From: a bacterium
GTDB lineage: Bacteria; Bacteroidota; Rhodothermia; Balneolales; M1805
Assembly: GCA_006226965.1 (NCBI GenBank)
Contig: SBGQ01000025.1
Location: 1-61,456, forward strand
DNA length: 61,456 nucleotides
Reading direction: 5' to 3'
Of the stretch, positions 3,101-20,649 are shown piece after piece (within the stretch, counting starts at the first letter, position 1; each line of letters opens with the position of its first letter). The notes beneath the pieces were generated by a model. It made no database searches. It worked only from the letters and a program-made list of their open reading frames with translations, and was not told where the DNA came from. A program made the position numbers and the translations under genes.

Positions 3101-3260
3101 TGATAGAATAATCAAAGCCATTCAATCGCAAAAAAAGTATATTTCGGAAGAAACATTAACACTTGAAATTAATGTTGGCGACTTAGATATTTGCGACTAT
3201 TCCAAAAAATGGGATATAGATGGCGAGGATATAACTATCGCGATTAAACGTTCTAATTAA
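102..3260 (+). CDS. ileS: isoleucyl-tRNA synthetase
   Basis: This cytoplasmic class I synthetase charges tRNA-Ile with isoleucine. The 1052 residues carry the HIGH-type motif as GIHH at residues 57-60 and KMSKS at 599-603. The editing (CP1) domain lies between them, with its TTTPWT motif near residue 226 and the HTAPAFG segment. The length and the lack of a C-terminal zinc finger fit the type 2 (eukaryote-like) IleRS rather than the shorter E. coli type. Known members of type 2 are often insensitive to mupirocin, which I infer but cannot test here. The ATG at 102 has no Shine-Dalgarno sequence, as is usual in Bacteroidota. It is first in a likely operon with the DksA-like gene and lspA. Identification is secure. 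Confidence 0.98.
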   Translation: MSKKFQEVKQINHPKLELEVLQFWKENNIFTKSITTREDGIPFTFYEGPPTANGKPGIHHVMARTVKDLFCRFKTLKGYKVERKAGWDTHGLPVEIEVEKQLGLNGRSQVEEYGVAKYNALCRESVLKYKGLWDSLTERMGYWVDLSKPYITFENEYIESCWWALSELHKKGLLYKGYKIQWYSPGSGTVLSSHEVSLGYKEVQDPSVYVKFKSLEGEQTYFVAWTTTPWTLISNMALTINPALDYVYAHVKSSGEILILAKSLADQVIGEDYEIITEVKGSKLLGKKYEPLFSFAKNELGADAGWKVIAGDFVTLEDGTGIVHTAPAFGADDYNVCLEAGIQLYNPVDRDGKFTSQAGEFGGQWFKDADKLIIRNLKDRGLMHKQLTYLHNYPHDWRKGTPLMSYPVDSWFIKTTAVRDRMIELNKKINWKPESTGTGRFGTWLENNVDWAISRQRYWGTPIPIWVNDNNPNDMIVIGSIKELVDKAGIKDTSKLDLHRPYIDDITWKASDGGTYRRIPDLLDVWFDSGAMPFAQHFYPQQNKDKFKNQFPADFIAEGVDQTRGWFYTLHALGTMLFNKPAYLNVVSNGLVLDEKGEKMSKSKGNTVDPFDILSRYGSDITRWYMMSNSAPWENLKFSEKGLQETQRKFFNTITNTYSFFAMYANIDGFNFSGQYIAVSNRPEMDRWIISRLYTTVKKVDTFFEEYEPTKAAREVEKFVEELSNWYVRRNRRRFWKDGKSLDKTSAYQTLFECLLNLSKLIAPIAPFLSEWLYQNLNDVVEQDQESVHISFYPTVEETAIDKALEYRMERARLVSSIVLRIRNQISVNVRQPLGKIILPISDEEEIAVMESVKDIILDEVNVKDIEYVSDDSGIVEKTAKPNFAVLGKKLGAKMKAVSSATKDLGTQDITNIELSGKWTVQIEGESIEILSSELDITRTGLHGWSVESEEGLTVALDTELSEILINEGIAREFINRVQNMRKEAGFEVTDRITTNFESSDRIIKAIQSQKKYISEETLTLEINVGDLDICDYSKKWDIDGEDITIAIKRSN

Positions 3261-3278
3261 AATAAATTGGAGTCAGAT

Positions 3279-3683
3279 ATGGAAGGCAACGAAAAAAACA
3301 AACCTGCAGAGAGAATTTCTCCATATAACGACGAAGAACTGGAGTATTTCCGCGAGATTATCCTCAAAAAAAGAAGCGAAGCTGAAGAAGATTTAACAAT
3401 GCTTCAACGCACTCTTCGTGAAGCAATGGATAATCCAAGTGATGATAATGCCTACTCGTTTCATATGGCCGATGCTGGAACTGATGCATCTGAACGTGAA
3501 AAAAACTACGTGTTATTAAATCGCACTAAAAAATTCCTCAAATATTTGGATGCCGCTTTAGAACGTATTGATAACAAAACGTATGGTGTGTGTAAAGTTA
3601 CCGGCAAAAAAATCTCAAAAGGTCGCTTAGAGGCAGTACCACACACACAAATCAGTATTGAAGCAAAACTGAAACGACGTTAA
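3279..3683 (+). CDS. TraR/DksA-family protein with degenerate zinc finger
   Basis: This 134-residue protein belongs to the TraR/DksA family, which binds in the RNA polymerase secondary channel and modulates transcription with ppGpp. An N-terminal helical coiled coil (about residues 10-75, with the acidic-tip-like DAGTDASERE segment) is followed by the C-terminal YGVC segment. Only one cysteine of the usual four-Cys zinc finger remains; the later segment has KISKGRLEAVPHTQ in place of the second Cys pair. The ATG at 3279 is preferred over an in-frame TTG at 3267. It begins 18 bases after ileS and ends 1 base before lspA. The same gene order is, to my knowledge, common in Bacteroidota and relatives. 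Its exact role is inferred from the family. Confidence 0.88.
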   Translation: MEGNEKNKPAERISPYNDEELEYFREIILKKRSEAEEDLTMLQRTLREAMDNPSDDNAYSFHMADAGTDASEREKNYVLLNRTKKFLKYLDAALERIDNKTYGVCKVTGKKISKGRLEAVPHTQISIEAKLKRR

Positions 3684-3684
3684 T

Positions 3685-4245
3685 TTGAATAATTTCAGAT
3701 CTAAACTTATAGCACTGCTGAGTATCTCAGCAGTGGTTATTACTATCGATCAATGGTCGAAGTATGTCGTTCGTACTGATGCGAACTGGCAGTATTTCGA
3801 TATTATTAAAGGTTGGTTAGCCTTTCACTATATCCAAAATCCGGGTATGGCTATGGGAATCGAAGTACTACCGACTTACATAATTGGCTATTTAACACTT
3901 GCTGCCATAATTGGTATTGTTTTCTATTTATTTAAGCTCTTAAAAACCGCCAACTGGGGTCAGGTTTTTTGCTACGGATTAATTATTGGCGGAGCTATTG
4001 GTAATATTTTCGACCGAATGTTTATGGGAATTATTCAAGATAAATCCGGCTTTATGGACGGTCACGTCGTCGATTTTATACACTTTACTTTAGAAATTAA
4101 TGGCTGGTCCGTTTTCCCATATATCTTCAATTTCGCTGATGTAGCCATTAGTTGTTCTGTAATAGCTATGTTTGTGTTTTATAAACATCTCATGCCAGAG
4201 GAACTTAAAAACAGCGCTAAACCAGCAACGGAATCAGCCGAATAA
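3685..4245 (+). CDS. lspA: prolipoprotein signal peptidase II
   Basis: LspA cleaves the signal peptide of lipid-modified prolipoproteins in the inner membrane. The 186 residues form four membrane spans. Family motifs are visible: D22 in the first span, N52-P53-G54, the GNIFDR motif around D110, and the two catalytic aspartates D130 (VVDF) and D152 (FADV). The start is a TTG at 3685, one base after the stop of the DksA-like gene; the next internal ATG would remove the first span, so TTG is the only sensible start. Its substrates abound in this window, which holds at least seven predicted lipoproteins. Coupling to ileS is conserved in many bacteria. Confidence 0.96.
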   Translation: MNNFRSKLIALLSISAVVITIDQWSKYVVRTDANWQYFDIIKGWLAFHYIQNPGMAMGIEVLPTYIIGYLTLAAIIGIVFYLFKLLKTANWGQVFCYGLIIGGAIGNIFDRMFMGIIQDKSGFMDGHVVDFIHFTLEINGWSVFPYIFNFADVAISCSVIAMFVFYKHLMPEELKNSAKPATESAE

Positions 4246-4358
4246 GTATTTGTCAAAACCACGACTTTGACTTACAATTTCTTTATTTCAGAATATATAT
4301 CTGATACTAAAAGACTACATTCCCTGTTATCAACTAAAAGTAACCTAAATCAACGTAC

Positions 4359-4970
4359 ATGAAACGTCTTATCTGGTTAAGCTTAATTCTGATAACATTT
4401 CCACTTCAAATCTTTAGTCAATCTAAATCAACAATGAAAACTGCAACTTTTGGTGCCGGATGTTTTTGGTGTGTAGAAGCCATTTTTCAAAGAATTGATG
4501 GTGTTAACCATGTAGAATCGGGATACTCCGGCGGCACTGTAACCAACCCGACATATGAAGAAGTTTGTACTGGAAAAACCGGACACGCAGAAGTAATTCG
4601 TATTGAATATGACGAGTCTAAGGTTAGTTTTGAAACACTGTTAGATGTTTTCTGGCACACACACAATCCGACAACCTTAAATCGCCAAGGTGCAGATACC
4701 GGAACGCAATATCGCTCTGTAATTTTTTATGATGATGATGCGCAAAGAGAAGCCGCAATTGCATCAAAGAAAAAAACTGATGAATCCGGGTTGTGGGACG
4801 ACCCAATTGTTACTGAAATTTCGCCCTTAATCAACTATTATAAAGCGGAGAACTATCATCAAAATTATTATAACAACAACCCTAACCAAGGCTATTGCTC
4901 GTTCGTAATTGCGCCGAAAGTGGCAAAATTCCTCAAGCAATATAAACATCTGCTAAAAAAAACTGATTAA
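4359..4970 (+). CDS. msrA: secreted peptide-methionine (S)-S-oxide reductase
   Basis: MsrA reduces methionine-S-sulfoxide in damaged proteins. The 203-residue product has an N-terminal signal peptide (about residues 1-20, ending near FSQS), so it should act in the periplasm. The catalytic GCFWCVE motif sits at residues 34-40 with C35 as the nucleophile, and the C-terminal QGYCSFVI segment supplies a possible resolving cysteine. There is no fused MsrB domain. The gene follows lspA after 113 bases that contain only a weak 6-bp hairpin (4252-4271), so it may have its own promoter. The reductant for the periplasmic enzyme is not visible nearby. Confidence 0.95.
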   Translation: MKRLIWLSLILITFPLQIFSQSKSTMKTATFGAGCFWCVEAIFQRIDGVNHVESGYSGGTVTNPTYEEVCTGKTGHAEVIRIEYDESKVSFETLLDVFWHTHNPTTLNRQGADTGTQYRSVIFYDDDAQREAAIASKKKTDESGLWDDPIVTEISPLINYYKAENYHQNYYNNNPNQGYCSFVIAPKVAKFLKQYKHLLKKTD

Positions 4971-5120
4971 TTCCTATTTCAGATTCTCAGGAACCTGAAG
5001 CTAAGTTCAAGGTATTTAAACAGTTGAAACAATTATTCAAGTAAAATTGAATTTCAGATAATGAAAAGTCTTTATTACATTAGGCTTATTGGAGATATTA
5101 AATCATTACAAAGGCAAACC

Positions 5121-5600
5121 ATGAAAAAATTACTTCTGTTAGGTTTAACATTTAGTTTGGGATTTCTAGTTATTCAAGGATGTGGTCCGTCTGAAGAAGA
5201 ACTACGTGCAAAAGAAAAAGCAAGACAAGATTCACTTGCCCAAGTTGAAGCAGCAAAACAAGCACAGATAGAAGCTGAACGTTTAGCACAAATTGAAGCT
5301 GACCGCTTAGCTGCAATTGAGGCTGAAAAAGAGCGTAGAAGAATCGAATTTGATCCAAACGGGAAATACACAGTACAAGTTGAAGCGAGCAGAGCTCGTG
5401 AAACTGCCGAAAAAGAAATTCCGAAATGGAAAAAACGTGGCTACCCTGATGCATTTGTTGTTGAGTTTGGCGATGAACAATCCGGTGATGTTTGGTTCAG
5501 AGTCCGCCTCGGCAGATTTGCTACGCGTAAAATGGCTGACAAAGCTGCCAATGTTATATTCGAAGATTATAAAAAGAAAACTTGGGTAACTACCCTGTAA
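5121..5600 (+). CDS. SPOR-like lipoprotein with charged coiled coil
   Basis: The 159-residue protein has a lipoprotein signal (start at 5121, MKKLLLLG, cleavage before C21 in IQGC). A highly charged alpha-helical stretch follows (about residues 25-75) with repeated IEAxRLAxIEA units. The C-terminal domain, about 75 residues starting at KYTVQVEASRA, resembles the SPOR fold that binds denuded peptidoglycan at division sites. An upstream in-frame ATG at 5061 would bury the signal peptide and is rejected. I infer an outer-membrane lipoprotein that reaches into the peptidoglycan layer, possibly in division or wall remodelling. The SPOR assignment rests on pattern only. Confidence 0.75.
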   Translation: MKKLLLLGLTFSLGFLVIQGCGPSEEELRAKEKARQDSLAQVEAAKQAQIEAERLAQIEADRLAAIEAEKERRRIEFDPNGKYTVQVEASRARETAEKEIPKWKKRGYPDAFVVEFGDEQSGDVWFRVRLGRFATRKMADKAANVIFEDYKKKTWVTTL

Positions 5601-5631
5601 TCTGTACTCACATCCAAAATTTAAAGCCTGT

Positions 5632-6183
5632 ATGAAGTATTCTAAATGTAACTTTGGGATTATTTGTACAGGCTTATTTTTTTTAGGATTAACACTTCTA
5701 TCCTGCACTCAACCTAAAGAAATCACTTATCCGACAACGAGTTCTTGGAATGGTGGTTTTTTATTCAAATTTCAGAATTTTGGTTACGGAAACGTAAATC
5801 CTCAATCTAAATCAGATCCGCTTTTCAGTAATCTACAATTGCAGGAACGAATAAAAAAAGAGATAAAATTTCAGTTTGAGAATCAAGGTTTAAAGCTGAC
5901 ATCCAATTCGCCCGACTCCTATCTATTTTATTATTTTCTTGATGATTCTTTAAAAGCCCCCGTTTTGCCTTACCAATACGGTAATTTACTTCCTGAGCAA
6001 TATTCGATAGATGTAGACACACTTACCGGCAAGCAAGCACTTTTTGTAATGGATTTAGTTGATTCTGGAACGATGCAGTTAGCATGGAGAGCTTATGCTA
6101 AAATAACCATTACCCCAACGGACACGCTCTACAAACAGCTTCCCTTAATGATTGAAGCCATCGTAAAACGTTATCCCGGATGA
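5632..6183 (+). CDS. DUF4136-like lipoprotein
   Basis: This 183-residue lipoprotein has a signal peptide ending in the lipobox LLSC. The body resembles DUF4136: an early Tyr-Trp region (TYPTTSSW), a middle block of the type NLQLQERIKKEI...FENQGL, and the late block VMDLVDSGTMQLAWRAYA followed by a C-terminal segment ending in KRYP. The family is widespread in envelope lipoproteins and has no assigned activity. Its stop overlaps the start of the next gene by four bases (ATGA at 6180-6183), so the two are translationally coupled. Confidence 0.75.
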   Translation: MKYSKCNFGIICTGLFFLGLTLLSCTQPKEITYPTTSSWNGGFLFKFQNFGYGNVNPQSKSDPLFSNLQLQERIKKEIKFQFENQGLKLTSNSPDSYLFYYFLDDSLKAPVLPYQYGNLLPEQYSIDVDTLTGKQALFVMDLVDSGTMQLAWRAYAKITITPTDTLYKQLPLMIEAIVKRYPG

Positions 6184-7115
6184 AAATTGGGTTAAAAGAG
6201 TTACTCATTCCTCCTTATCTGCCGGATAACCTTGACGAGTTAGAGCAACTGATTCTACAAAAAGAACTAAAAGCAGGACGTATAAAACCTGACAATGAAG
6301 CTCGAATCGTTTGGAATAACCCTGAAAAAAAACTTAAAACCGAGTTTTCCATAGTTTATATACATGGCTTTTCATCCAGTATAGGTGATGGGAAACCCTT
6401 ACATTTCCGCGCAGCTGAATACTGCAACGCCAATCTTTATTTATGCCGTCTTGCGGGACATGGACTTGCAGAAAATCCAATGAAAAACACTTTATATACA
6501 GATTGGATTAAAACAGCAGTTGAAGCATTTGCAATAGGTGAAAAAATTGGGCAAAAAATTATCGTGATGGGTTGCTCAACAGGGGCTGCATTAGCTGCAT
6601 TAATTGCAGCATATAAACCGACAACAAAAGCCTTATTACTCTATTCGCCTTTAGTTGAGTTTTATGATTGGAGAGTCAGGAATTTACCAAGCGCATTATT
6701 AGGTAAACTCCAACAATGGATTTTACCCAATAAACACATTAGAACCAATGCATCAAAAAGCGGCTTACATGATTTTGAAGCGCAATATTGGTATGACACT
6801 TATCCGTTGAAAGCCGTTATTGAACTTAAAAAACTAGTTGACTTAGTAAAAAAAGAAGAACCGTTTTACAAGCTACAAATGCCCTTATTACTAGCTTACT
6901 ATCATAAAAGTAAAACCGAAACAGATCATAGAGTTCACATCCCGACTCTCGAACGCATCAAAGACATTCAACTTTCAAAAGGCAGTTATCGCTTCATCAA
7001 GAATTATAAAGACGGCGGTTACCACATTTTAACCAATCCATTTCATAATAAATCATATGATGAAGTGGAGGCAGATACACTTGCCTTTTTATTTCGCATC
7101 TTAAATAAGATTTGA
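6180..7115 (+). CDS. alpha/beta hydrolase
   Basis: This 311-residue protein is a serine alpha/beta hydrolase without a signal peptide. The oxyanion-hole HG is at residues 62-63, the nucleophile elbow GCSTG gives S133, and the C-terminal GGYH gives the likely catalytic H282. The acid residue is not certain. The fold and the lid-like middle region (about 150-215) resemble monoacylglycerol lipase or carboxylesterase types, but the substrate cannot be told from sequence. Coupling to the DUF4136 lipoprotein gene suggests an envelope or lipid-related role, which is inference only. Confidence 0.85.
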   Translation: MKIGLKELLIPPYLPDNLDELEQLILQKELKAGRIKPDNEARIVWNNPEKKLKTEFSIVYIHGFSSSIGDGKPLHFRAAEYCNANLYLCRLAGHGLAENPMKNTLYTDWIKTAVEAFAIGEKIGQKIIVMGCSTGAALAALIAAYKPTTKALLLYSPLVEFYDWRVRNLPSALLGKLQQWILPNKHIRTNASKSGLHDFEAQYWYDTYPLKAVIELKKLVDLVKKEEPFYKLQMPLLLAYYHKSKTETDHRVHIPTLERIKDIQLSKGSYRFIKNYKDGGYHILTNPFHNKSYDEVEADTLAFLFRILNKI

Positions 7116-7153
7116 TTTTTGCCTTTTCTTTGCAAAATATTTTTCGGGTATTA

Positions 7154-7185
7154 TTTGCATAAAGAAATCTGTTACCCTATTTTTG
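7154..7185 (+). promoter_or_regulatory. Bacteroidota-type promoter ahead of small-RNA candidate
   Basis: TTTG at 7154-7157 and TATTTTTG at 7178-7185 are separated by 20 bases. This matches the TTTG-N19/20-TAnnTTTG consensus exactly. The implied start of transcription is about 7190, and no protein gene follows before the strong terminator at 7224-7261. Confidence 0.5.
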
Positions 7186-7189
7186 TGAG

Positions 7190-7261
7190 CGCTCAAGTAG
7201 CGTCTCTCTTGATGAATAGTTTAAGACATCGTACCTGAACCGTGCGATGTCTTTTTTTTTT
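7190..7261 (+). ncRNA. small RNA candidate, about 70 nt
   Basis: A consensus promoter (7154-7185) and a perfect intrinsic terminator (7224-7261) bracket a transcript of about 70 bases in the 352-base gap between the hydrolase and the STAS gene. The 5' part can form a 5-bp stem (7193-7197 with 7208-7212), leaving a single-stranded stretch at about 7213-7223. The remaining gap (7262-7401) is T-rich and holds nothing else I can name. I recognise no known RNA family. It could instead be only the 3' end of the upstream operon with a chance promoter match. Confidence 0.4.
7224..7261 (+). terminator. strong intrinsic terminator
   Basis: AGACATCG (7224-7231) pairs with CGATGTCT (7245-7252). The stem extends inward by three more pairs (one G-U) to a 7-base loop and is followed by ten T. 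It ends either the small-RNA candidate or read-through from the hydrolase operon. Confidence 0.85.
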
Positions 7262-7401
7262 GAAATTGTCTTTAATCTCCCGATTTACCCGATTTTATTT
7301 TTATAATCGTTGAATCTTTCTCTTTTCACCTACGTAGCGACTTAACTTTTATTTTCACAATAAATAAGCAAGTCAACAAAAAATGAATTTTTTTAATAAC
7401 G

Positions 7402-7432
7402 TTTGCTTACATCGCTCAAACTGTTAACTTTA
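7402..7432 (+). promoter_or_regulatory. promoter of the partner-switching operon
   Basis: TTTG at 7402-7405, a 19-base spacer and TAACTTTA at 7425-7432 match the local promoter consensus with one mismatch. The predicted start near 7438 leaves a leader of about 30 bases before the STAS gene. Confidence 0.5.
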
Positions 7433-7467
7433 CCCTAGTTGACAGTAAATGAATTCTAAAAATTGAA

Positions 7468-7818
7468 ATGAGTAATTTCGGTATCCAACATAATCACAAA
7501 GACGGTTTAGACATCCTGGAAATCAGTGGTGAACTCGACGCACATACAGCATCTCAACTTGAGGATGCTTTAAAGATTGTGCTCGATCAAGATCGAAATC
7601 GCATTATCGTAAATTGCCAATCTCTTGAATACATAGCTAGTGCCGGTTTAGGTGTTTTTATGGCTTATATTGAAGACGTGAGAAGTTTAGGTGGCGATAT
7701 CAAACTTACCAACATGAATCCTAGGGTGTATAATGTGTTTGATTTATTAGGATTCCCAACTCTCTATGATATTTTAGAAGATGTATCTGACGCTGTTGAA
7801 CAATTCTCAAAAGCCTAA
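7468..7818 (+). CDS. STAS-domain anti-sigma factor antagonist (RsbV/SpoIIAA-like)
   Basis: This 116-residue single STAS domain is an anti-anti-sigma factor. In this family the unphosphorylated protein binds and removes the kinase/anti-sigma partner. The conserved loop reads IASAGLGVF, which places S58 at the phosphorylation position used in RsbV (Ser before T/S/A-Gly-Leu-Gly). The GELDAHT segment and the C-terminal FDLLGF helix are also typical. It is the first gene of a three-gene set: the next gene starts on the base after its stop. The system's output cannot be seen here because no sigma factor gene is adjacent. Confidence 0.93.
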   Translation: MSNFGIQHNHKDGLDILEISGELDAHTASQLEDALKIVLDQDRNRIIVNCQSLEYIASAGLGVFMAYIEDVRSLGGDIKLTNMNPRVYNVFDLLGFPTLYDILEDVSDAVEQFSKA

Positions 7819-8247
7819 GTGAGTAAATTGGATTCAAAATCAGATAACATATTAACTGTTTCTGCTTCTACAGAAAATCTGGCTGATGTGCGCAATTTCG
7901 TTGCTGAAAGCGCTCGTACGCACGGTTTATCTGAAAAAGATATTGATGAAATTCGTTTAGCGGTTGACGAAGCTTTTACGAATATCGTAAAGCATGCTTA
8001 TAACTATGACAAAGCTCAAAATGTCAGTTTAAAAACCGGGGTTGAAAACGCTTCTTTTTGGATTTCAATTTGCGACCAAGGCAAACCTTACGACCCGACT
8101 TCTTATACTGAACCCAACATTGCTGAACGAATAAAACAAGGTAAACGCGGAGGTGTAGGCGTTTATCTAATAAAAAAATTGATGGATAAAGTTGAGTACA
8201 AATCAATCGGCTCAACCAACCAGATTCGTTTAATTAAGCATCTTTAA
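7819..8247 (+). CDS. HATPase anti-sigma kinase (RsbW/SpoIIAB-like)
   Basis: The 142-residue protein is a GHKL-type ATPase of the RsbW/SpoIIAB family, expected to phosphorylate the STAS protein and to sequester a target. The N box is present (E51, N55, H59 in EIRLAVDEAFTNIVKHA), then the G1 box around D86-Q-G88-K-P90 and the G2 box GGVGVYLIKK at 111-120. It starts with GTG at 7819, directly abutting the preceding stop, so the two proteins are likely made in fixed ratio. Target unknown: it could be a distant sigma factor or a non-sigma effector, as in some other partner switches. Confidence 0.92.
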   Translation: MSKLDSKSDNILTVSASTENLADVRNFVAESARTHGLSEKDIDEIRLAVDEAFTNIVKHAYNYDKAQNVSLKTGVENASFWISICDQGKPYDPTSYTEPNIAERIKQGKRGGVGVYLIKKLMDKVEYKSIGSTNQIRLIKHL

Positions 8248-8258
8248 GTAATCTTTCC

Positions 8259-9989
8259 ATGCAAAACATGGACGACCTGGAAAACAGGCGGAATAAATTT
8301 GAGCTAAAAGCCATTCTCGATAGCAGTCGTCTTCTTATAGAATCGCACGATACTGACTTTATTATGAGTAACCTGTTATTAAACCTTATGGGAAAACTCA
8401 TGATTACAAAATCGGCCGTTTTTATTTATGATGAAGACGCTGAATGTTTTTTTGCTACACACACCAAAGGCAGACTTAGTTTCCAAACCAATTTTAGAAT
8501 TGATTGGGAAATACCGGATTCCTATAAGGCTCATACTATTCATACCATAAAAAACGAATCCACTGACTATCCTTCAAACTTTTGGGAAAATGATTTAAAA
8601 ACGATTGTTCATATTAAAACGAGCAATCAATATTTAGGATTTATTTTACTCGGCCCGAAGCTTAACAAAGAAGTTCTAAGCCAACGTGAAATCGATTTTG
8701 TAACCAGCTTAGTAATTATCCTCTCGGTTTCTATTGCTAATTCTCAATTATTCAGCGGATTAAAACAAGCGAACCGCAATCTTGACAAAAAAGTACAAGA
8801 ACTCCACACTCTATTCGATCTAAGCAAAGAATTTTCTGCAACTGTTGAACGCGACCAAATTCTTCGCATTTTCAAATTTGCCTTATTAGGTCAGATGTTT
8901 ATTAAATCGTTCTTTTTAATATTTGATAGAAATGGAGCAAAATCGGTTTTAGCAAGAAGCGGAGTTCCCAAACAAATCGAAGATTCCGATTTAGTTCCTA
9001 TCTACGATAAGGTAAACGAACCCATCCACTTAGATTTATTCGATGAAAACCCCTATTCTGAAATTGATGGATTAAATTTTCAGTTACTGCTACCCTTACG
9101 TTTGCAAGACAAAAAACAAGCTATCTTGGGTGTAGGACCACGTGCAAATGGCGAAAAATTCACGGAATCAGACATCAACTTTTTATATTCGTTGGGCAAT
9201 TTGGTATTGATGTCCATCCAAAAAACTTATTTGCTGGAAGAACAAATTGAGAAAGAGCGCATAGAAAAAGAATTGAATATCGCCCGAGATATTCAAAAAC
9301 GCCTATTACCTAATAAGATTCCCAAACTCACATCTTATCAATTATCAGCACTAAATGAACCGTCGCAATTTGTTGGTGGCGATTATTATGATGTAATTCA
9401 AGCCGGGGATGATAAAGCGGTTATTGCCATTGCGGACGTAACGGGCAAAGGCATCCCTGCATCTTTAATTATGGCAAACTTACAAGCCATGTTACATCTT
9501 CTAAACGACTCCAGCTTAGACTTACCAGCAAAAACAGGCAAAATTAACAATATCATTTACGAAAATACTCCGCCTGATATTTTTATAACGTTTTTTTGGG
9601 GGCTACTCAATGCCAGAGAGCATCAATTTACATATGTGAATGCAGGGCACAATGCCCCGCTTCTTTACAGAGCTAAAACCGGAGAATTTGAAGAGCTAAC
9701 GAAAGGCGGATTGCTAATCGGTGCACTTCAAACCTTGATGCCGTACCAGTCCGAAACGGTTGAATTACAGCGCGGAGATATTATTGTATTTTTTACCGAT
9801 GGTGTTACCGAAGCGATGGATGAACTAGACGAAGAATATGAAGAAGCACGCCTGAAAGCTTTGATAAAAAAACGCGCCTCTTTATCAGCGGAAGAGTTAA
9901 AAACTGAAATTGTGCTGGATGTAAAGTCGTATTGTGATAATCAGTTAGGCGATGATTTAACTCTAATTGTTTTAAAAAGAGATTCCTAG
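8259..9989 (+). CDS. GAF-SpoIIE PP2C-type serine phosphatase (RsbU-like)
   Basis: This 576-residue cytoplasmic protein should dephosphorylate the STAS protein and so turn the switch on. A GAF-like region (about 25-165), a short coiled coil (175-195) and a second GAF-like region (about 195-335) precede the SpoIIE/PP2C domain (380-575). Metal-binding motifs of PP2C are visible: GGDYYD with D375 and D378, then IADVTGKGIPAS, FFTDGVTE and GDDLTL. There is no membrane span, so the GAF units probably sense a cytosolic ligand or partner. It follows the kinase gene after 11 bases. Its stop overlaps the convergent transglycosylase gene by four bases (CTAG). Confidence 0.93.
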   Translation: MQNMDDLENRRNKFELKAILDSSRLLIESHDTDFIMSNLLLNLMGKLMITKSAVFIYDEDAECFFATHTKGRLSFQTNFRIDWEIPDSYKAHTIHTIKNESTDYPSNFWENDLKTIVHIKTSNQYLGFILLGPKLNKEVLSQREIDFVTSLVIILSVSIANSQLFSGLKQANRNLDKKVQELHTLFDLSKEFSATVERDQILRIFKFALLGQMFIKSFFLIFDRNGAKSVLARSGVPKQIEDSDLVPIYDKVNEPIHLDLFDENPYSEIDGLNFQLLLPLRLQDKKQAILGVGPRANGEKFTESDINFLYSLGNLVLMSIQKTYLLEEQIEKERIEKELNIARDIQKRLLPNKIPKLTSYQLSALNEPSQFVGGDYYDVIQAGDDKAVIAIADVTGKGIPASLIMANLQAMLHLLNDSSLDLPAKTGKINNIIYENTPPDIFITFFWGLLNAREHQFTYVNAGHNAPLLYRAKTGEFEELTKGGLLIGALQTLMPYQSETVELQRGDIIVFFTDGVTEAMDELDEEYEEARLKALIKKRASLSAEELKTEIVLDVKSYCDNQLGDDLTLIVLKRDS

Positions 9990-13013: not shown

Positions 13014-16000
13014 TTATTTGTCCTGATACTCAGGCTTTTCAGATTCTTCGTAAGAATGACCATTTCCATTTGTGTATACATCTGTTGTATCCAAAGCTTG
13101 TTCAATCGTTACTCCTTCTATTTGCGCAACTAATTTAGCTTCAGCATATTCTTTTCCTTTGAAGAAAGCTGTTAACCACATATTAATTGAATCAAAAGTC
13201 AGATATAGAACGGGAACTAAAATTAAGGTAATCGCTGTAGCAAAGCTTAGCCCGACAATTACTGCAGTTGCCATTGCCGACCACCATGCTGCTTGTTCAC
13301 CGCCGTAGTACACATACTGACCAATGTTTGTAAAGAATTCAATTGGATTTGAGTACAATACCAAGAAGTCAAAGTTAAAACCGATAGCTAATGGAATTAA
13401 ACCAAGAACCGTAGTTACAGCCGTTAAAATTACCGGACGGAAACGTGTTGAGCCAGCTTTAACCAATGACTCTCTGAGCGATAATTTATCTCTGAAACGA
13501 AGTACATCGATATAGTCAATCAATACAATGGCGTTGTTTACAACCACACCGGCAAGCGATACGATACCAATACCGGTCATGATAACAACAAACGGCATTC
13601 TCAAAATCACCATTCCGTAAAATACACCGGCTGTAGACATCATTACTGAAGTGAGGATAATTACAGGTTTTATCAAGGAGTTAAATTGTGAAATCAAGAT
13701 AAAAGCGATCAAGAACATGGCAATTAAGAACGCATTTGCCAAGAATTCCTGAGCTTTTTGTTGTTCTTGATTCTGACCTGTCCAAGTCATTTTATACCCT
13801 TTGGGCAACTCTTTTTCGTAAGGTGATAATAAAGCCTGCACTTCCTTAAGCACATCGTTCGGCGTGAACCCACTTCTAACATCTGCGCCGATAGAAATCA
13901 CACGATTCATATCAATTCGTTTAATTCCGCCGAAGCTTTCATCAACATACCAAGTAGCAATTTCAGATAACGGAATCTGGCGACCTTTATCAGCCATTAC
14001 GTTTAATTCACCAAGGCTGCTCAAATCTTTTCTGTATTGCTCCGCTACGCGAACAGTAATGTCGTATTCATCTTTTCCATCGCGGTATTTTGAAGCTTCT
14101 ACACCGTTTACAGCTTGTCGAACAGTGGAACCAATCACATTTGTTGATAGACCATATTTTGCAGCTTTTTCACGGTCAACAATTACGCGCAGTTCAGGGC
14201 GTGCATCCGGTAAATCTGTATCTAAACCTTCCAGTTTAGAATAGACAGGATCATTCTCAATTTTCTTGATTAAGATGGCTGATATACGCTCTAACTCATC
14301 CATGTTCGTACCGGAAAGTTCAACATTTACAGGCTTACCTGTCGGAGGTCCGTTTTGTTGTTTTTCAACTACAATTGTAGCCCCGACAATTCCTTCATCT
14401 AGGTTTGATCGCATCCATTCAAGTGCTTCAAATGTATCACCAACGCGTTCAGTATAATCTTTAAAAGAAACAACTACTGTACCTAAGTGTGTTGAGGCTC
14501 CGCCGCCGCCAAATCCACCGGAAATTTTCTTTCCTGATGTGGCTACTACAGATTCAACGTCTTCGTAGTTAGGTATGTTTTTAAGGCGTTTTTCAATAAT
14601 CTGAATTACTTCATCTGTTTTCTCAACGCTCGTTCCTACGGGACCTTCTACCTGAACATATAATTGCTTTGGAGGAATTCCTTCCGGAAAAAATTCAACA
14701 GGTGTAGGGAACGCACCAAAAAGCATGAACGCTAAGACAAAAGTTCCTACTGAGATTCCTAGTGTAAAAATCGGATGTTTTAACGCCCATTTTAGTGAGT
14801 TTTCATACTTCTCAACTACATCATTTAATCCTTTTGTTTGCCACCACGTTGAAATTGGGAAAAACGCATATTTATTGATGTAATGAACAGAAACTACAGT
14901 TAAAATTCCCATTCCGGCTATCACTGGCATTGAGAATAACAGAACTAATAAAACCAAACCAATAATTGCATAGAGTGTGATTTTACCGTTGCGAGTCATT
15001 CCCGGTTTATCATCTTTAACACCTTCTAATGTCATGTATTTAGCACACAACACAGGGTTAATTACAAGACCGATAAATAAAGATGATGAAAGGGTTACAA
15101 TGAGTGTTTTAGGTAAAAATCCCATGAATTCACCCACGATACCCGGCCAGAAAGCCATCGGGAAAAATGCGGCTAAGGTTGTTAACGTTCCGGAGATAAT
15201 CGGAATAGCAACTTCACCTGTTCCTTTTTTGGCAGCTGTAATATTATCGTACCCTTCTTCTAAATAGCGATATATGTTCTCTACAACTACAATCGCATTA
15301 TCTACAAGCATCCCTAAAGCAAGAATCAATGAGAATAATACAACCATGTTCATGGTAATTCCGGTAGCCAACAAAATAATGAAGGATAAGAACATGGAAA
15401 GGGGAATGGAAATACCTACGAAAGATGCGTTTTTAACCCCTAAGAAGAAAAGAAGCACTCCAATTACAAGAATTAAACCGGATATAATACTGTTTTCGAG
15501 GTTTGCCACCATGTCTTCAATGTTTTTACTTAACTCGGAAGTAATTTTCACATTGGTTGTTGGTGGGAAGTTTTCACTTTCGTCAGCAATAATTGCCTTT
15601 ACATCGGCTGTAGTTTGTATGATGTTTTCACCTGTTCTTTTCTTAACAGATAACGTAATTACTGGGTCGCCATCTAAGCGCGCATAGGATTCACGATCTT
15701 TGAAACCGAAATCAACATTAGCAACATCACGCAAATAAATCGGATTGTCAGAATTGGCTTTAACTACAATGTTTTCCAATTTTGACGGGTCTTTGTACTC
15801 ACCTGGAATACGAACCAAGAATTTTTTGGAGCCCACTTCAATTGAACCGCCCGGAATAGTAACATTTTCAACCTGAACGGCTTTAATTACATCACCAAAA
15901 CTTAAGCCGAAGTATTTCAATCGCGGTAAATCCACATCAATTTTAACTTCGCGCTCTAGTTCACCGGCCATATCAACTTCCAATACAGACGGTAAACCTT

Positions 16001-16532
16001 CAATTCTGTCTTTTACGTTTTCAGCGATTTTTTTGAGCCTATCCAAGCTATATTGACCGGAAAGGTTCACTTGCATAATCGGGAATTCAGAAAAATTAAT
16101 TTCCTGAATGATTGGCTCTTCGGCAGCAGCCGGTAAATCAGGCTTTGCCAAGTCCACTTTTTCACGAACTTTTTGAAGTGCTTCATCAATATTTACCGAA
16201 GTTTCAAATTCGATATTGATTGAAGAATATCCTTCTGTTGAAGTAGAAGACATCTTTTTGATGTCAGCAATTTCGTTGAGCTTATCTTCAATCTTTTGTG
16301 TGATAAGGCTCTCCATATCCTCCGGAGCCACACCCGGGTACAAACTAATCACAATAATATTTGGAATCGTGATATCGGGCTGTGCTTCTTTTGGAATCGT
16401 TAAATAAGAACGAATACCAATTATGGTAATCAAAAAGAGCATTACTAATACGCTAATGGCATTATCTATCGAAAAAGACGATAGTTTATACTCTTTACGA
16501 TCATCTACGGTTTGATTGTTTTGATTCGACAT
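13014..16532 (-). CDS. RND-family efflux transporter permease
   Basis: This 1172-residue inner-membrane pump of the AcrB/hydrophobe-amphiphile efflux type is the proton-driven component of a tripartite exporter. The TM4 signature GMLVDNAIVVVENI contains the proton-relay D411, and VVNNAIVLIDYID marks TM10. It is about 130 residues longer than AcrB. One extra hydrophobic block with two more predicted spans follows the TM6 region (about residues 510-555), and about 20 residues are inserted before the last span. Similar long RND proteins occur in Bacteroidota. The adaptor gene ends 24 bases upstream. Substrate unknown; TetR control suggests drugs, bile acids or other toxic lipophiles. Confidence 0.95.
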   Translation of the reverse strand: MSNQNNQTVDDRKEYKLSSFSIDNAISVLVMLFLITIIGIRSYLTIPKEAQPDITIPNIIVISLYPGVAPEDMESLITQKIEDKLNEIADIKKMSSTSTEGYSSINIEFETSVNIDEALQKVREKVDLAKPDLPAAAEEPIIQEINFSEFPIMQVNLSGQYSLDRLKKIAENVKDRIEGLPSVLEVDMAGELEREVKIDVDLPRLKYFGLSFGDVIKAVQVENVTIPGGSIEVGSKKFLVRIPGEYKDPSKLENIVVKANSDNPIYLRDVANVDFGFKDRESYARLDGDPVITLSVKKRTGENIIQTTADVKAIIADESENFPPTTNVKITSELSKNIEDMVANLENSIISGLILVIGVLLFFLGVKNASFVGISIPLSMFLSFIILLATGITMNMVVLFSLILALGMLVDNAIVVVENIYRYLEEGYDNITAAKKGTGEVAIPIISGTLTTLAAFFPMAFWPGIVGEFMGFLPKTLIVTLSSSLFIGLVINPVLCAKYMTLEGVKDDKPGMTRNGKITLYAIIGLVLLVLLFSMPVIAGMGILTVVSVHYINKYAFFPISTWWQTKGLNDVVEKYENSLKWALKHPIFTLGISVGTFVLAFMLFGAFPTPVEFFPEGIPPKQLYVQVEGPVGTSVEKTDEVIQIIEKRLKNIPNYEDVESVVATSGKKISGGFGGGGASTHLGTVVVSFKDYTERVGDTFEALEWMRSNLDEGIVGATIVVEKQQNGPPTGKPVNVELSGTNMDELERISAILIKKIENDPVYSKLEGLDTDLPDARPELRVIVDREKAAKYGLSTNVIGSTVRQAVNGVEASKYRDGKDEYDITVRVAEQYRKDLSSLGELNVMADKGRQIPLSEIATWYVDESFGGIKRIDMNRVISIGADVRSGFTPNDVLKEVQALLSPYEKELPKGYKMTWTGQNQEQQKAQEFLANAFLIAMFLIAFILISQFNSLIKPVIILTSVMMSTAGVFYGMVILRMPFVVIMTGIGIVSLAGVVVNNAIVLIDYIDVLRFRDKLSLRESLVKAGSTRFRPVILTAVTTVLGLIPLAIGFNFDFLVLYSNPIEFFTNIGQYVYYGGEQAAWWSAMATAVIVGLSFATAITLILVPVLYLTFDSINMWLTAFFKGKEYAEAKLVAQIEGVTIEQALDTTDVYTNGNGHSYEESEKPEYQDK

Positions 16533-16556: not shown

Positions 16557-17666
16557 TTAGTTTGCAGCTGCCATTGTTTTAGACTCCGTTGTATCCACAA
16601 CAGCAATACGAGTCATATTTTCAATATTTCCGGAACCGCCGGTAATTAATAACTCACCCGGTTTAACTCCTGAATCAATTACAACTCTGTTGTTGAAACT
16701 TGGGCCTAAGGTTACTTTTCTACTTTTCGCAACCCATTTTCCGTCTTTTTCTTTTGATGCAATGAATAACTCATAGCCATTTTCTGTTCTGAAAACATAT
16801 TCTTGACTAATTACGATGGCTTCATCAAAGCTTGCTGTTTCTAAGATTACATTTGCAACCATATCAATTTTGAGCTCGTTGTTTTTGTTAGGAAGCTCAA
16901 TTTCAACTTTAAACGTTCTGGATTGCGTTTGAATACTGCTGGCTACATAGGAAATATCTGACTTAAATGTCTTGTTAACATATGCATCAAAACTGATTTC
17001 AGCGGCGTCACCTTTATGAATTACAGCGGCATAATTTGCAGGAACACCTACTTCAATTTTCACTTTATCCGTTCCGATAATTCTTACCATCGGAGTGCCA
17101 GCACCAACAAGCTCACCAGCTTTAACTAACTGAGACTCAACAACCCCGTTAATCGGTGAGGTTACATTTGTTTTGCGTAATTGAATTTTCAATTGATCTA
17201 AAGACGCTTTGTTTTGCTCGTATAAGTACTTAGCGTTCAAATAACCGATTTCTGTACCGATAGAATCTTCTTTCCAGATTGATTCCAATCTCTTGTAGTT
17301 TTCGTAGGTTGATGCAACTACAGCTTCCATACGCTCAACATCTTTTTTGAGCATCTCGTCATCGATTTTCGCAATAACATCACCAACTGATACTTTTCCG
17401 CCTTCCGGAATGTAATACTTCACGATTTTCCCGGAAACTTCAGCAGAATACTTAATATCGTCTACAGCTTTTACTTCGCCAATTAAACGAATAAAGCTTG
17501 TGAACGGCTCGTTTTCGAGCTCTTTTGTACTTACGTTTACTACTTTTACCGCTTCTTCAGTTGTAGTTTGCGAAGTTTCAGCAGCAGTTGTTTGTTCTGG
17601 TGCTTCCTCTTTGGAGCATGCGGCTAATAAGCCTAAAACAATAATTAATGGGAGAGTTGATTTCAT
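16557..17666 (-). CDS. RND efflux periplasmic adaptor lipoprotein
   Basis: The 369-residue membrane-fusion protein links the RND pump to the TolC-type channel. It starts with MKSTLPLIIV and a lipobox LAAC, so it is lipid-anchored. Order of domains: a biotinyl-lipoyl half (about 75-105, ISGKIVKYYIPEGGKVSVGD), a helical hairpin (about 110-165), the second lipoyl half (TSPINGVVES), a beta-barrel and a membrane-proximal domain. An in-frame TTG 36 bases upstream is rejected because it would bury the signal. It lies between tolC and the pump gene in the same operon. Confidence 0.93.
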   Translation of the reverse strand: MKSTLPLIIVLGLLAACSKEEAPEQTTAAETSQTTTEEAVKVVNVSTKELENEPFTSFIRLIGEVKAVDDIKYSAEVSGKIVKYYIPEGGKVSVGDVIAKIDDEMLKKDVERMEAVVASTYENYKRLESIWKEDSIGTEIGYLNAKYLYEQNKASLDQLKIQLRKTNVTSPINGVVESQLVKAGELVGAGTPMVRIIGTDKVKIEVGVPANYAAVIHKGDAAEISFDAYVNKTFKSDISYVASSIQTQSRTFKVEIELPNKNNELKIDMVANVILETASFDEAIVISQEYVFRTENGYELFIASKEKDGKWVAKSRKVTLGPSFNNRVVIDSGVKPGELLITGGSGNIENMTRIAVVDTTESKTMAAAN

Positions 17667-17702
17667 ACGTTTATTTATTTCTGTTAAGCTCTTATTGTTC
17701 AA

Positions 17703-19154
17703 TTAGTTCACGATTTGTGCAACAAAAGGCACTTTACCAATTGCCATATCATATTGCGCTTTTGCGCTTAGATAGTTAAAAACGAGTGTTGCATAGTTTA
17801 CTTCAGCCTGACGCAATTGTAACTCTGCGTCGGTTACTTCAAGCTGAGTTCCTAATCCATTTTTTTGGCGAATTAAAGCACGGTCATAACCTACTTTCGC
17901 CAGTTGCAAACCTTCTTTTACTGAAGGAACTAATTCAAACAAATTCTGAATATTATCTTGTGCCGTAAGGGTTTCATTAACAGCGCTTTCTTTGGCAAAG
18001 CGGCGTTGTTCTTCAATGTTTTTCTTTTCAATTTTTGATTGTTGAAGTGCCGTGTATTGCTTTAATCCATTGAACAAATTCCAGTTCAGCGTTAAGCCTA
18101 ATACTTGAGAGCGAGCTCTTTGATCTGACGTTGCAAAGAATACAGGTGTACCGGCTTGCGCTGCTGTCCAACGCATACTATATGATGCATTCAAATTGGG
18201 TAAAAAGTTTGTTTTGTCTGCAAAAATGCGTTGATCTTGCAAATCACTGGCAACTTTTAAAGAACGTAAATCCCCACGAGAAGCATTCACCATAAAAGAT
18301 ATTTCATTCGGTGAATCAAATGTCAAAGGAGTCATTTTGTCAATTGATTTGAGATCAGTATTTAAACTGCTCACTGCATTTTCAGATAGAATTTCAAATT
18401 CCTTTAAATCACCGACAATCTCAAAACGGACATTCACCGGTAATCCCATAGCGAGATTTAGCCTTCTGTTTGCTTCCAAAACTGCATTTTCAGCATTTTT
18501 TAAAGCAGGTTCCTGATTTTTTAACTGCACTTTTAAACGCAGTACATCGTAATCATCAACTAAACCAGCTTTTACACGTGCTTCATTTTCAACTAAATTT
18601 TTGCGTAAACGCTCGATATTCAGTTGCTCTAATCGATAGGTTTCATTCGCGAACAAAGCCTGATAATAAGCTACACGAGTCTGCGTAACCACTTTTTGTG
18701 CAATTGCTCTGTGATTTTCTTTTTGTGCCAAACGGTATAAATCTGCCGTTGCAATACCAACGAATGCCTCACCACGAAATAATGTCTGGCTTACCGTGAA
18801 TCCGCCGGACCAGTTGTTATCTGTACCGAAACGCACAGGTATCAATGTTCCCGCCGGTCCGCCAAAAATCTCAGCGGGTAAAAAGTTTACCGGCACTTCT
18901 AAATTCCGCTGATATGAAATATCGGTGTCGATTTTTGGGAAAACTTCACCCCAAGAAACTAAAACAGATTGTTCAGCATCTTCAATTTGATAAACAGCTT
19001 GTTTTATTTCAGTAGCATTAGCCAATGCCGTTTTAATTGCCTGACTTAATTTTAGCTCCGGCTTTACACCAGTGCTGTTTTGCGCCACACTATTTTGAAT
19101 GGCTACGAATAATATCAGAACTAGCAAAGCTCTGACGCTCATATATTTACTCAT
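17703..19154 (-). CDS. TolC-family outer membrane efflux protein
   Basis: This 483-residue outer-membrane factor has a signal peptide ending at NSVAQ and the two duplicated OEP repeats (about 35-235 and 285-475) that form the trimeric barrel and helical tunnel. Segments such as AYYQALFANETYRLEQLNIE and NYATLVFNYLSAKAQYDMA are typical of the two long hairpins. It is the first structural gene of the efflux operon, behind a promoter that overlaps a TetR-type operator (19217-19238). Confidence 0.93.
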   Translation of the reverse strand: MSKYMSVRALLVLILFVAIQNSVAQNSTGVKPELKLSQAIKTALANATEIKQAVYQIEDAEQSVLVSWGEVFPKIDTDISYQRNLEVPVNFLPAEIFGGPAGTLIPVRFGTDNNWSGGFTVSQTLFRGEAFVGIATADLYRLAQKENHRAIAQKVVTQTRVAYYQALFANETYRLEQLNIERLRKNLVENEARVKAGLVDDYDVLRLKVQLKNQEPALKNAENAVLEANRRLNLAMGLPVNVRFEIVGDLKEFEILSENAVSSLNTDLKSIDKMTPLTFDSPNEISFMVNASRGDLRSLKVASDLQDQRIFADKTNFLPNLNASYSMRWTAAQAGTPVFFATSDQRARSQVLGLTLNWNLFNGLKQYTALQQSKIEKKNIEEQRRFAKESAVNETLTAQDNIQNLFELVPSVKEGLQLAKVGYDRALIRQKNGLGTQLEVTDAELQLRQAEVNYATLVFNYLSAKAQYDMAIGKVPFVAQIVN

Positions 19155-19216
19155 GTTTAGGTTGATTTTTTTATTTAAAAAACGGTTTTCGGTACGGTTC
19201 GATAAACAGGTAGTTT

Positions 19217-19238
19217 CAAAAATACTGACTCACAGTCA
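19217..19238 (-). promoter_or_regulatory. efflux-operon promoter -7 box with TetR-type operator
   Basis: The inverted repeat TGACT-N3-AGTCA (19226-19238) abuts a perfect -7 box TATTTTTG on the minus strand (plus 19217-19224). The same arrangement, nearly identical over about 30 bases, precedes tetR. A repressor bound here would cover the promoter of tolC, adaptor and pump. Transcription would start near 19212, giving a leader of about 58 bases. Confidence 0.65.
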
Positions 19239-19910
19239 TTTTTTTGTAATAGCGCTTTCTAAAAGATTTAGAAAGTTTGAAATATTGGATTTATAGCTCA
19301 AATCCATGCCCTCGAGAGAGGATAAAACAAATCCTCTTTCATACAAATAACTTATCTGGAAGATACCTTTAACTCCACCCCAATAAAGTACAGCCAATTC
19401 CTTAGCATCACCTTTATAAACAATGGAACCATCTGCCATTCCTACTTGAATTGCACGAATTAAATAGGAAAACATTCTAGCTGCAGAATCATGGCAACGA
19501 AACGCCTCAGTATTTTCATCTGCACAAATCTGAACAGCGGTTTCAACATTCGGAAACAAGAGCATTTCATTCTGTAAAAACAATTCCATAACCCTTGGAT
19601 TCTGTTCAATATAATCGATGTATTGCTCAGCCATCTTTTTTAGCAGCACATTTCCGGGAAAATCCAAAGCCAACACTCTGGCAAAACGATCAGATACAAT
19701 TTCCAGCGAACGATTATGAATGGCTAAAGAAAGTTCTTTTTTACTTGCAAAATACAAGTACAAGGTTCCTTTACTCAACTCCACTTTTTCAGCAATTTCG
19801 TCCATTGTAATAGACTCAAAACTCTTCTCTTTTAAAAGCGAGTCAACAGCATTCAGAATCTGAATTCTTCTTAGTTCTTTTTCTTTTTCTTTTTTGGTGA
19901 TTACGGTCAT
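19236..19910 (-). CDS. TetR-family transcriptional repressor
   Basis: The 224-residue protein has an N-terminal TetR helix-turn-helix (about residues 10-57, with ITMDEIAEKVELSKGTLYLYFASKKEL-like recognition region) and a larger ligand-binding C-terminal part of the type paired with RND pumps. It sits directly upstream of the tolC-adaptor-RND operon in the same direction. Matching operators lie in front of itself, in front of tolC and farther upstream at 20018, so it most likely represses both itself and the pump and is released by a pump substrate. The ligand is unknown. Its TGA stop overlaps the tolC operator. Confidence 0.92.
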   Translation of the reverse strand: MTVITKKEKEKELRRIQILNAVDSLLKEKSFESITMDEIAEKVELSKGTLYLYFASKKELSLAIHNRSLEIVSDRFARVLALDFPGNVLLKKMAEQYIDYIEQNPRVMELFLQNEMLLFPNVETAVQICADENTEAFRCHDSAARMFSYLIRAIQVGMADGSIVYKGDAKELAVLYWGGVKGIFQISYLYERGFVLSSLEGMDLSYKSNISNFLNLLESAITKK

Positions 19911-19914
19911 GTCT

Positions 19915-19936
19915 CAAAAATACTGACTCTTAGTCA
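19915..19936 (-). promoter_or_regulatory. tetR promoter -7 box with TetR-type operator
   Basis: TGACT-N3-AGTCA at 19924-19936 lies just upstream of a perfect TATTTTTG -7 box on the minus strand (plus 19915-19922). A TTG lies 22 bases farther upstream, so the operator fills the spacer. Transcription would start at about 19910-19911, at or next to the ATG, so tetR may be leaderless. Confidence 0.6.
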
Positions 19937-20017
19937 TTTTTTATCAATTAAATTTTAACTCTAGTGCATTTTTTGTTGAAAACGGTTTCAGAAAAGACAA
20001 AAACAACGATTTCCTTA

Positions 20018-20030
20018 TGACTAACAGTCA
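20018..20030. promoter_or_regulatory. third copy of the TetR-type operator
   Basis: TGACT-AAC-AGTCA repeats the operator found before tolC and tetR. It lies between tetR and the divergent gmhB-like gene. It has no -7 box beside it, but it directly precedes a weak plus-strand promoter (TTTC at 20031 and TACCTTTC at 20057-20064). Confidence 0.55.
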
Positions 20031-20094: not shown

Positions 20095-20649
20095 ATGAAT
20101 AAAGCTTTTTTCCTAGATCGTGACGGCACATTAAACGAAGACTATGATTTTGTTCACTTAAAAGAAGAGTGGACTTGGTGTAAAGGCGCAATTGATGCCA
20201 TCAAATGGATGAATCAGAATAAATACAAAGTTATAGTAGTTACGAACCAATCCGGAATTGCCAGAGGTAGATTTAGCTTAGAACAAGTACAAGAATTACA
20301 CCGTTTTGTTGATGCCGACTTAAAAAAACACGATGCTTGGATTGATGATTGGTGCATTGCTTGGTGGCATCCAAAATTTCATGGTGATTTAGATCCGGCT
20401 CTTTTAGATTATCGAAAACCCGGAACACGTTTCTTCACCGAGATGATTCATAAATATAACTTAGACCCTGCTTTTTGCTTCATGGCAGGCGACAAGCCAT
20501 CTGATTTAAAACCGGCACTGTCTTTAGGAATGAAAGCGTTTTATATCAAATCTCGATTTCATGAGACCAACGACCACGAATGGTTGGAAAAACGGGGTTT
20601 TGAACATCCATTCAATAACTTAGGTGAGATTATATCTTCATTGAAATAG
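20095..20649 (+). CDS. HAD-IIIA phosphatase, GmhB/HisB-N-like
   Basis: This 184-residue HAD phosphatase resembles D-glycero-D-manno-heptose-1,7-bisphosphate 7-phosphatase. The nucleophile motif FLDRDGTLN gives D8 and D10, motif II is VTNQSG, and motif III includes GDKPSD. Genuine GmhB has a zinc loop with three cysteines and a histidine; here that loop reads CIAWWHPKFHGD then DYRKPG, keeping only one Cys and the histidines. The substrate is therefore uncertain: heptose bisphosphate or another sugar or histidinol phosphate. It is transcribed divergently from tetR and stands alone. Confidence 0.82.
   Translation: MNKAFFLDRDGTLNEDYDFVHLKEEWTWCKGAIDAIKWMNQNKYKVIVVTNQSGIARGRFSLEQVQELHRFVDADLKKHDAWIDDWCIAWWHPKFHGDLDPALLDYRKPGTRFFTEMIHKYNLDPAFCFMAGDKPSDLKPALSLGMKAFYIKSRFHETNDHEWLEKRGFEHPFNNLGEIISSLK

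Follow-up and report, generated by a model that had tools for sequence, protein, structure and literature searches.

The window, a stretch of 61,456 nucleotides from a bacterium of the order Balneolales, contains a tetR gene and a tripartite RND efflux operon on the same strand and facing the same way (Table 1). The operon consists of adjacent genes for a TolC-type channel, a periplasmic adaptor and a permease, which match the OEP, HlyD/RND_mfp and ACR_tran families, respectively. The true start of the adaptor gene may lie further in than that of the frame listed. The permease matches the NCBIfam multidrug models under their cut-offs, the best being NF033617 (581 bits, cut-off 1250). The product of tetR carries a TetR_N helix-turn-helix domain at its N-terminus (PF00440, 44.9 bits, cut-off 24), as expected for the TetR family. 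The divergent neighbour on the other side of tetR is GmhB-like, and its score of 105.7 bits with the GmhB model TIGR00213 is under the cut-off of 149.6.

Table 1. Genes and predicted regulatory elements at the tetR–efflux locus (positions in the window)
Feature	Position	Strand	Remarks
RND permease (ACR_tran), final gene of the efflux operon	13014..16532	-	Pfam PF00873, E 2.1e-204
Periplasmic adaptor (RND_mfp)	16557..17702	-	TIGR01730, 176.4 bits (cut-off 94.9); HlyD_D23
TolC-type outer membrane channel, first gene of the efflux operon	17703..19154	-	Pfam OEP, E 6.9e-48; TIGR01844 under cut-off
Predicted ECF (sigma-W-like) efflux promoter, TGAAAC-N16-CGTA	19193..19218	-	-35 at 19213-19218, -10 at 19193-19196
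TATTTTTG, -7 box of the earlier note	19217..19224	-	Last two bases begin the ECF -35
Predicted operator 1, TGACTCACAGTCA	19226..19238	.	Overlaps the tetR stop codon; 7 bp ahead of the ECF -35 hexamer
tetR, TetR-family regulator of 224 aa	19236..19910	-	PF00440, E 9.9e-12
TATTTTTG, candidate -7 box of tetR	19915..19922	-	Identified by sequence
Predicted operator 2, TGACTCTTAGTCA	19924..19936	.	In front of tetR
Predicted operator 3, TGACTAACAGTCA	20018..20030	.	Separated by 94 bp from operator 2 and by 64 bp from the divergent GmhB-like gene
GmhB-like HAD-IIIA phosphatase, divergent neighbour	20095..20649	+	TIGR01662, 91.3 bits (cut-off 44.6)

Three exact copies of the palindrome TGACT-N3-AGTCA were found by scanning the window, at exactly the positions that the earlier note had given for them. 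When mismatches were allowed the scan returned 17 matches, and the 14 besides the exact three all carry two mismatches. The tetR stop codon (19236-19238) forms the start of operator 1, a point missed in that note. Operators 1 and 2 together with their flanks match at 32 of 40 bases, and on the minus strand G-TATTTTTG follows each of them, which confirms the near-identity and the equidistant common box described for them before.

The exact palindrome occurs six times in the genome of 3.78 Mb and the reversed control pattern four times; thus, it is not clearly enriched genome-wide. Enrichment is also absent at one mismatch (65 matches versus 122 for the reversed control) and for the degenerate form TGACYnnnRGTCA (7 versus 11), the seventh site of which lies on C143 (L208). 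Since the palindrome is not clearly commoner than its control, clustering and placement carry the weight. Three of the six exact copies fall within 805 bp at this locus, and the expected number of triplets that tight among six random sites is ~3e-6. A genome scan had been set as a refuting check on the operators: the counts give no excess, but the placement is far from random. As there is no genome-wide enrichment, a wide operator regulon is not claimed. The remaining exact copies lie near a second tetR (C22), after an efflux operon (C71) and inside a long frame (C123). The C22 copy (9729-9741) is 218 bp upstream of the second tetR, which belongs to a paralogous tetR-tolC-mfp-rnd operon of the same genome (L037, C22:1-11500, 2906-9510), and the C71 copy (L038, 256-268) is 23 bp past the last gene of what appears by eye to be a tetR-TolC-HlyD-ABC operon. 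A literature search for TGACTNNNAGTCA found no paper.

To place these sites, we compared the surroundings of tetR across genomes. Matches to tetR are present in 36 of 59 genomes, namely its own and 35 of 58 relatives from the same order, which NCBI places in the phylum Balneolota. At E 1e-10, tetR was found in 0/20 genomes of family f2, 23/23 of f3 and 10/11 of f4. The best 30 of the 42 tetR matches in same-order genomes were analysed as loci (L007-L036), and a tolC gene follows tetR in 29 of these 30. A second scan, across named records, kept the best 80 tetR loci, the top ones being from Balneolaceae. L007-L036, own locus included, and 30 named loci gave 54 non-redundant Balneolales loci after merging of identical tetR starts, a set that retains close relatives. 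TGACYnnnRGTCA lies directly upstream of tetR in 49 of these 54 loci (shuffle mean 0.0, reversed control 2), the conserved palindrome beside its own gene that is expected of a TetR-family regulator. It also lies at the tetR-tolC junction in 45 (shuffle mean 0.04, reversed control 1), where it often sits on the tetR stop codon itself. A further 50 loci, titled mostly Calditrichota, Bacteroidales, KSB1, Aminicenantes and others but including L153, which looks Balneolales-like, and L114, an apparent copy of L026, carry the upstream site in 40 cases (reversed control 3); 11 have one at the junction (reversed control 1).

Because the sites recur upstream of tetR and at the junction in this way, we read the motif as the operator of TetR and TetR as controlling its own gene. 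All three sites in the window very probably serve the adjacent TetR as operators, and the conservation gives good support to autoregulation combined with repression of the TolC-MFP-RND operon. The proposal of a TetR operator governing both tetR and the efflux operon is thereby strengthened, and the precise binding motif put forward with it generalises to TGACYnnnRGTCA across relatives. The arrangement in front of tetR has a local peculiarity. Two operators 18 bp apart precede tetR in 38 of the 54 Balneolales loci; in the window, no second operator was found at 18 bp from operator 2, up to one mismatch, and operator 3 stands 94 bp away instead. This spacing would be close to nine helical turns, and operator 3 perhaps helps operator 2 to limit tetR, or it may act on the divergent gmhB-like gene, as the earlier note suggested. 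The relatives in the operator comparison come from the same order and from families other than that of the window, and hence none of them bears on operator 3.

The palindromes could instead act in RNA, as terminator or attenuator hairpins. Such folding is found for the copy at C22:9729, a perfect hairpin (-15.7 kcal/mol, z -6.7) located 30 nt past the stop codon of a MarR-like gene, and site 3 folds somewhat better than its shuffles (z -2.2). For sites 1 and 2, however, folding does not exceed that of shuffles (z -0.3 and -0.2), so that a hairpin was rejected for both, and the sites upstream of tetR recur in 49 of 54 loci with spacer bases that vary freely among relatives. We consider the RNA explanation of the palindromes barely credible. 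The C22 copy is both upstream of a tetR and a perfect hairpin after the MarR-like gene, and thus could function in termination, as an operator or in both ways.

It is also very unlikely that the operators serve a regulator other than the adjacent TetR. The copy near the paralogous tetR-tolC-mfp-rnd operon would suit such a regulator, but within Balneolales the site tracks tetR, it lies upstream of tetR in most of the other loci as well, and SbtR, which is also of the TetR family, binds the same half-site. SbtR (TTHA0167) of Thermus thermophilus is a TetR protein experimentally proven on TGACT half-sites, with a KD of ~0.2 nM for its N4 consensus (PMC4948773). Its selected consensus, TGACTGGCCAGTCA, has the TGACT and AGTCA half-sites of the window's sites (PMC4948773), but they are separated by four bases in SbtR and by three here. 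The excerpts of that paper mention no link to an RND operon (PMC4948773), whereas tetR in the window adjoins one. Profile matching of this TetR set also returned, among others, the SbtR structure 3VUQ (E 1.5e-16 over residues 13-86).

A major departure from the earlier note concerns the promoter of the pump, for which two identical promoters with a common -7 box had been proposed. The element TGAAAC-TACCTGTTTATCGAAC-CGTA runs from 19218 down to 19193 and ends 38 bp before the ATG of tolC. It is the only strict match to TGAAAC-N16-CGTA in the window and agrees exactly with the sigma-W-like form TGAAAC-N16/17-CGTA at the start of the operon. The strict pattern TGHAAC-N16-CGTA occurs at the tetR-tolC junction in 35 of the 54 Balneolales loci (shuffle mean 0.03), and in all 35 the operator is positioned 5-10 bp upstream of the promoter. 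The usual layout in families f1, f3 and f4 is the operator, 5-10 bp, TGAAAC or TGTAAC, 16 bp and CGTA. The strict promoter is missing from the other 19 junctions, some of which show relaxed forms (CGTAAC, TATAAC or a 17-bp spacer); at L009, L031 and L036 it was not found even in relaxed form. Among the 50 other loci the single strict match is L114, the apparent copy of L026. Regarding the proposed -7 box, none of 34 relatives has TAnnTTTG at the position of the operator 1 box and one has it anywhere in the vicinity, in an alignment chosen for CGTA and the hexamer, so that those two columns are conserved by construction. The string TATTTTTG alone is not rare, nine copies being present in the window when both strands are counted. 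The idea of two identical promoters with a common -7 box is therefore not upheld at the pump, within these rows of ECF form. The efflux promoter looks like the type driven by an envelope-stress ECF sigma factor and not like an ordinary promoter.

The situation in front of tetR is different. The strict pattern TGAAAC-N16-CGTA is absent there, the single match in the window being the pump promoter. The tetR-side TATTTTTG ends 4 nt ahead of the ATG, and a transcript from there would therefore be nearly leaderless. By eye, a promoter of the form TTG/TAG-GAAY-N16-TAnnTTTG stands before tetR in many relatives, and the operator pair with the 18-bp interval comes after it; the window has a single operator near the ATG, then TATTTTTG, plus the distant operator 3. 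As the pump promoter is of the ECF type and the tetR-side one is not, the two promoters are unlike in kind, despite the similar flanks in this genome. A simpler model has ordinary housekeeping promoters with TATTTTTG as the -7 box at both operators, so that release of TetR alone would induce tetR and the pump together. TAnnTTTG is the known -7 consensus of Bacteroidota, and the equidistant G-TATTTTTG within flanks of such high identity also fits. The boxes conserved at the pump promoter are nevertheless TGAAAC and CGTA, TAnnTTTG is lacking there in the relatives (which were selected for the ECF form), and a TTG lies 22 nt upstream of TATTTTTG at operator 2 with none at the corresponding spot of operator 1. 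We regard the housekeeping model as unlikely and prefer an ECF-type promoter for the pump.

To assess the promoter class as a whole, we counted the strict ECF pattern across genomes. By raw count it is rarer than its reversed control, with 9 versus 21 matches in the window's own genome, 27 versus 51 in three genomes and 8 versus 13 in a separate count. Placement gives a different picture. Of the 27 matches in the three genomes, 19 are outside long frames and have a start codon 5-120 nt downstream, whilst the script puts 3 inside long frames; for the control, 2 of the 30 examined (of 51 found) are placed like promoters and 27 of 30 are inside long frames. Downstream frames of at least 60 aa were accepted, so that a few of the 19 (L053, L221) are weak. 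Two loci escaped the script, namely L219, whose pspC was observed but is under the length limit, and L220, whose MacB-like gene was counted as inside a frame. The non-random placement makes the class look real despite the low raw counts.

The genes that recur behind this class in the three genomes are tolC of the efflux operon, pspC, a MacB-like permease and a methyltransferase, the last two named from Pfam in the own genome and by eye in the relatives; the promoter type is thus shared with other envelope-stress genes. A longer pattern searched in eight relatives gave 19 matches versus 12 for the control, consisting of five before tolC in tetR-tolC operons, four before pspC, two before MacB-like permeases and eight before single genes or in frame. 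Of 30 pspC loci fetched, 27 could be parsed; 19 of these 27 have the strict promoter ahead of pspC (shuffle mean 0.02), and a looser pattern gave 22 of 27. Eight of the 30 loci come from one genus (g3), and redundancy was left in. The sequences compared show directly the sites with their conservation as well as an ECF-type promoter, which pspC and further envelope genes also carry. By contrast, nfeD was rejected as a conserved member, since of the 29 loci parsed from 30 fetched a single one, in the own genome, has the strict promoter, and some others have relaxed forms. In this one case (L261, C183, 11-2495), an nfeD-floA pair lies behind TGTAAC-N16-CGTA, like the sigma-W-controlled yqeZ-yqfA of Bacillus, and the gene after nfeD is floA (PF12127, E 6e-156). 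Similar proteins of ~420 aa are located behind the class in two genomes (L209, L210); one of them, scanned with its coordinates off by nine codons, had no match in Pfam.

Regarding the sigma factor, nine proteins were scanned against NCBIfam, with L057, L058 and L063 left out. A SigW-like ECF gene (L059, C45, 1474-2142, minus strand) has SigW as its best NCBIfam match, at 164.7 bits against a curated cut-off of 209. Inspection of its surroundings by eye revealed no anti-sigma gene; the neighbours are an apparent Ppx/GppA phosphatase and an alpha/beta-hydrolase. No link between this gene and the pump promoter was found beyond the consensus. A search for an autoregulated ECF gene was negative: 0 of the 9 strict matches share a contig with any of the 12 sigma-70 genes over cut-off, and therefore an ECF gene is not assigned to the promoter.

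With both elements in place, the pump appears to receive two inputs, one from TetR and one from an envelope-stress sigma factor. We consider it probable that the locus is a self-limiting TetR circuit set on an envelope-stress ECF promoter of the pump. TetR dimers would bind TGACYnnnRGTCA. On operator 2, perhaps aided by operator 3, TetR would limit tetR expression; on operator 1, it would cover the upstream edge and the -35 of the ECF promoter and so exclude the sigma factor. The pump would then be made when an ECF factor of the sigma-W/RpoE type is active and TetR is released, presumably by binding of a pump substrate. From this arrangement we infer the binding itself, the direction of regulation, the AND logic, the inducer, the substrate and the acting ECF factor.

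Known systems share parts of this design. TetR repressors of the AcrR/TtgR/MtrR type are also encoded beside tripartite RND operons; however, we know of no such pump that is driven by an ECF promoter, and here tetR and the pump are co-directional, unlike in those systems. In Bacillus subtilis, yvlC encodes PspC, YqfA is FloA and YknZ is MacB-like. The sigma-W consensus of this species is TGAAACN16,17CGTA, which the pump promoter fits (PMC2375139), and excerpts of a further source place yqeZ-yqfA-yqfB, yvlABCD and yknWXYZ in the sigma-W regulon (PMC3498285). The class described here resembles that regulon in preceding pspC, a MacB-like permease and an nfeD-floA pair, but it belongs to another phylum, lacks strict conservation of the nfeD promoter and includes an RND pump as well. 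The motif of SigP, as given in part of its source, differs from the pump promoter (PMC4800418). The nearest functional parallel is MexCD-OprJ of Pseudomonas aeruginosa, whose induction by membrane-damaging agents is AlgU-dependent according to a cited title (PMC10333786). Excerpts of the same source give the features in common: an RND operon, a local negative regulator (NfxB) and induction by envelope stress (PMC10333786). The regulator differs, and at the present locus the operator and the ECF promoter adjoin and are conserved order-wide. Nothing closer than the papers cited was among the literature matches listed. A literature search of narrow scope found no description of such a regulon in Balneolota and no link between an ECF sigma factor and a pspC promoter in Bacteroidetes.

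In summary, the comparison supplies an operator, together with its conservation test, for a TetR group that spans many phyla, and it cautions that a shared string such as TATTTTTG can mislead where conservation favours a different promoter. Sequence data by themselves also delineate here a class of ECF promoters and, for Balneolota, a candidate stress regulon. At about even chances, this may be a Balneolales-wide, sigma-W-like envelope-stress regulon, with pspC, a MacB-like exporter and, in this genome, nfeD-floA, into which an RND pump was recruited; the TetR operator, at a fixed distance of 5-10 bp from the ECF -35, would make its promoter a two-input gate for stress and ligand release.
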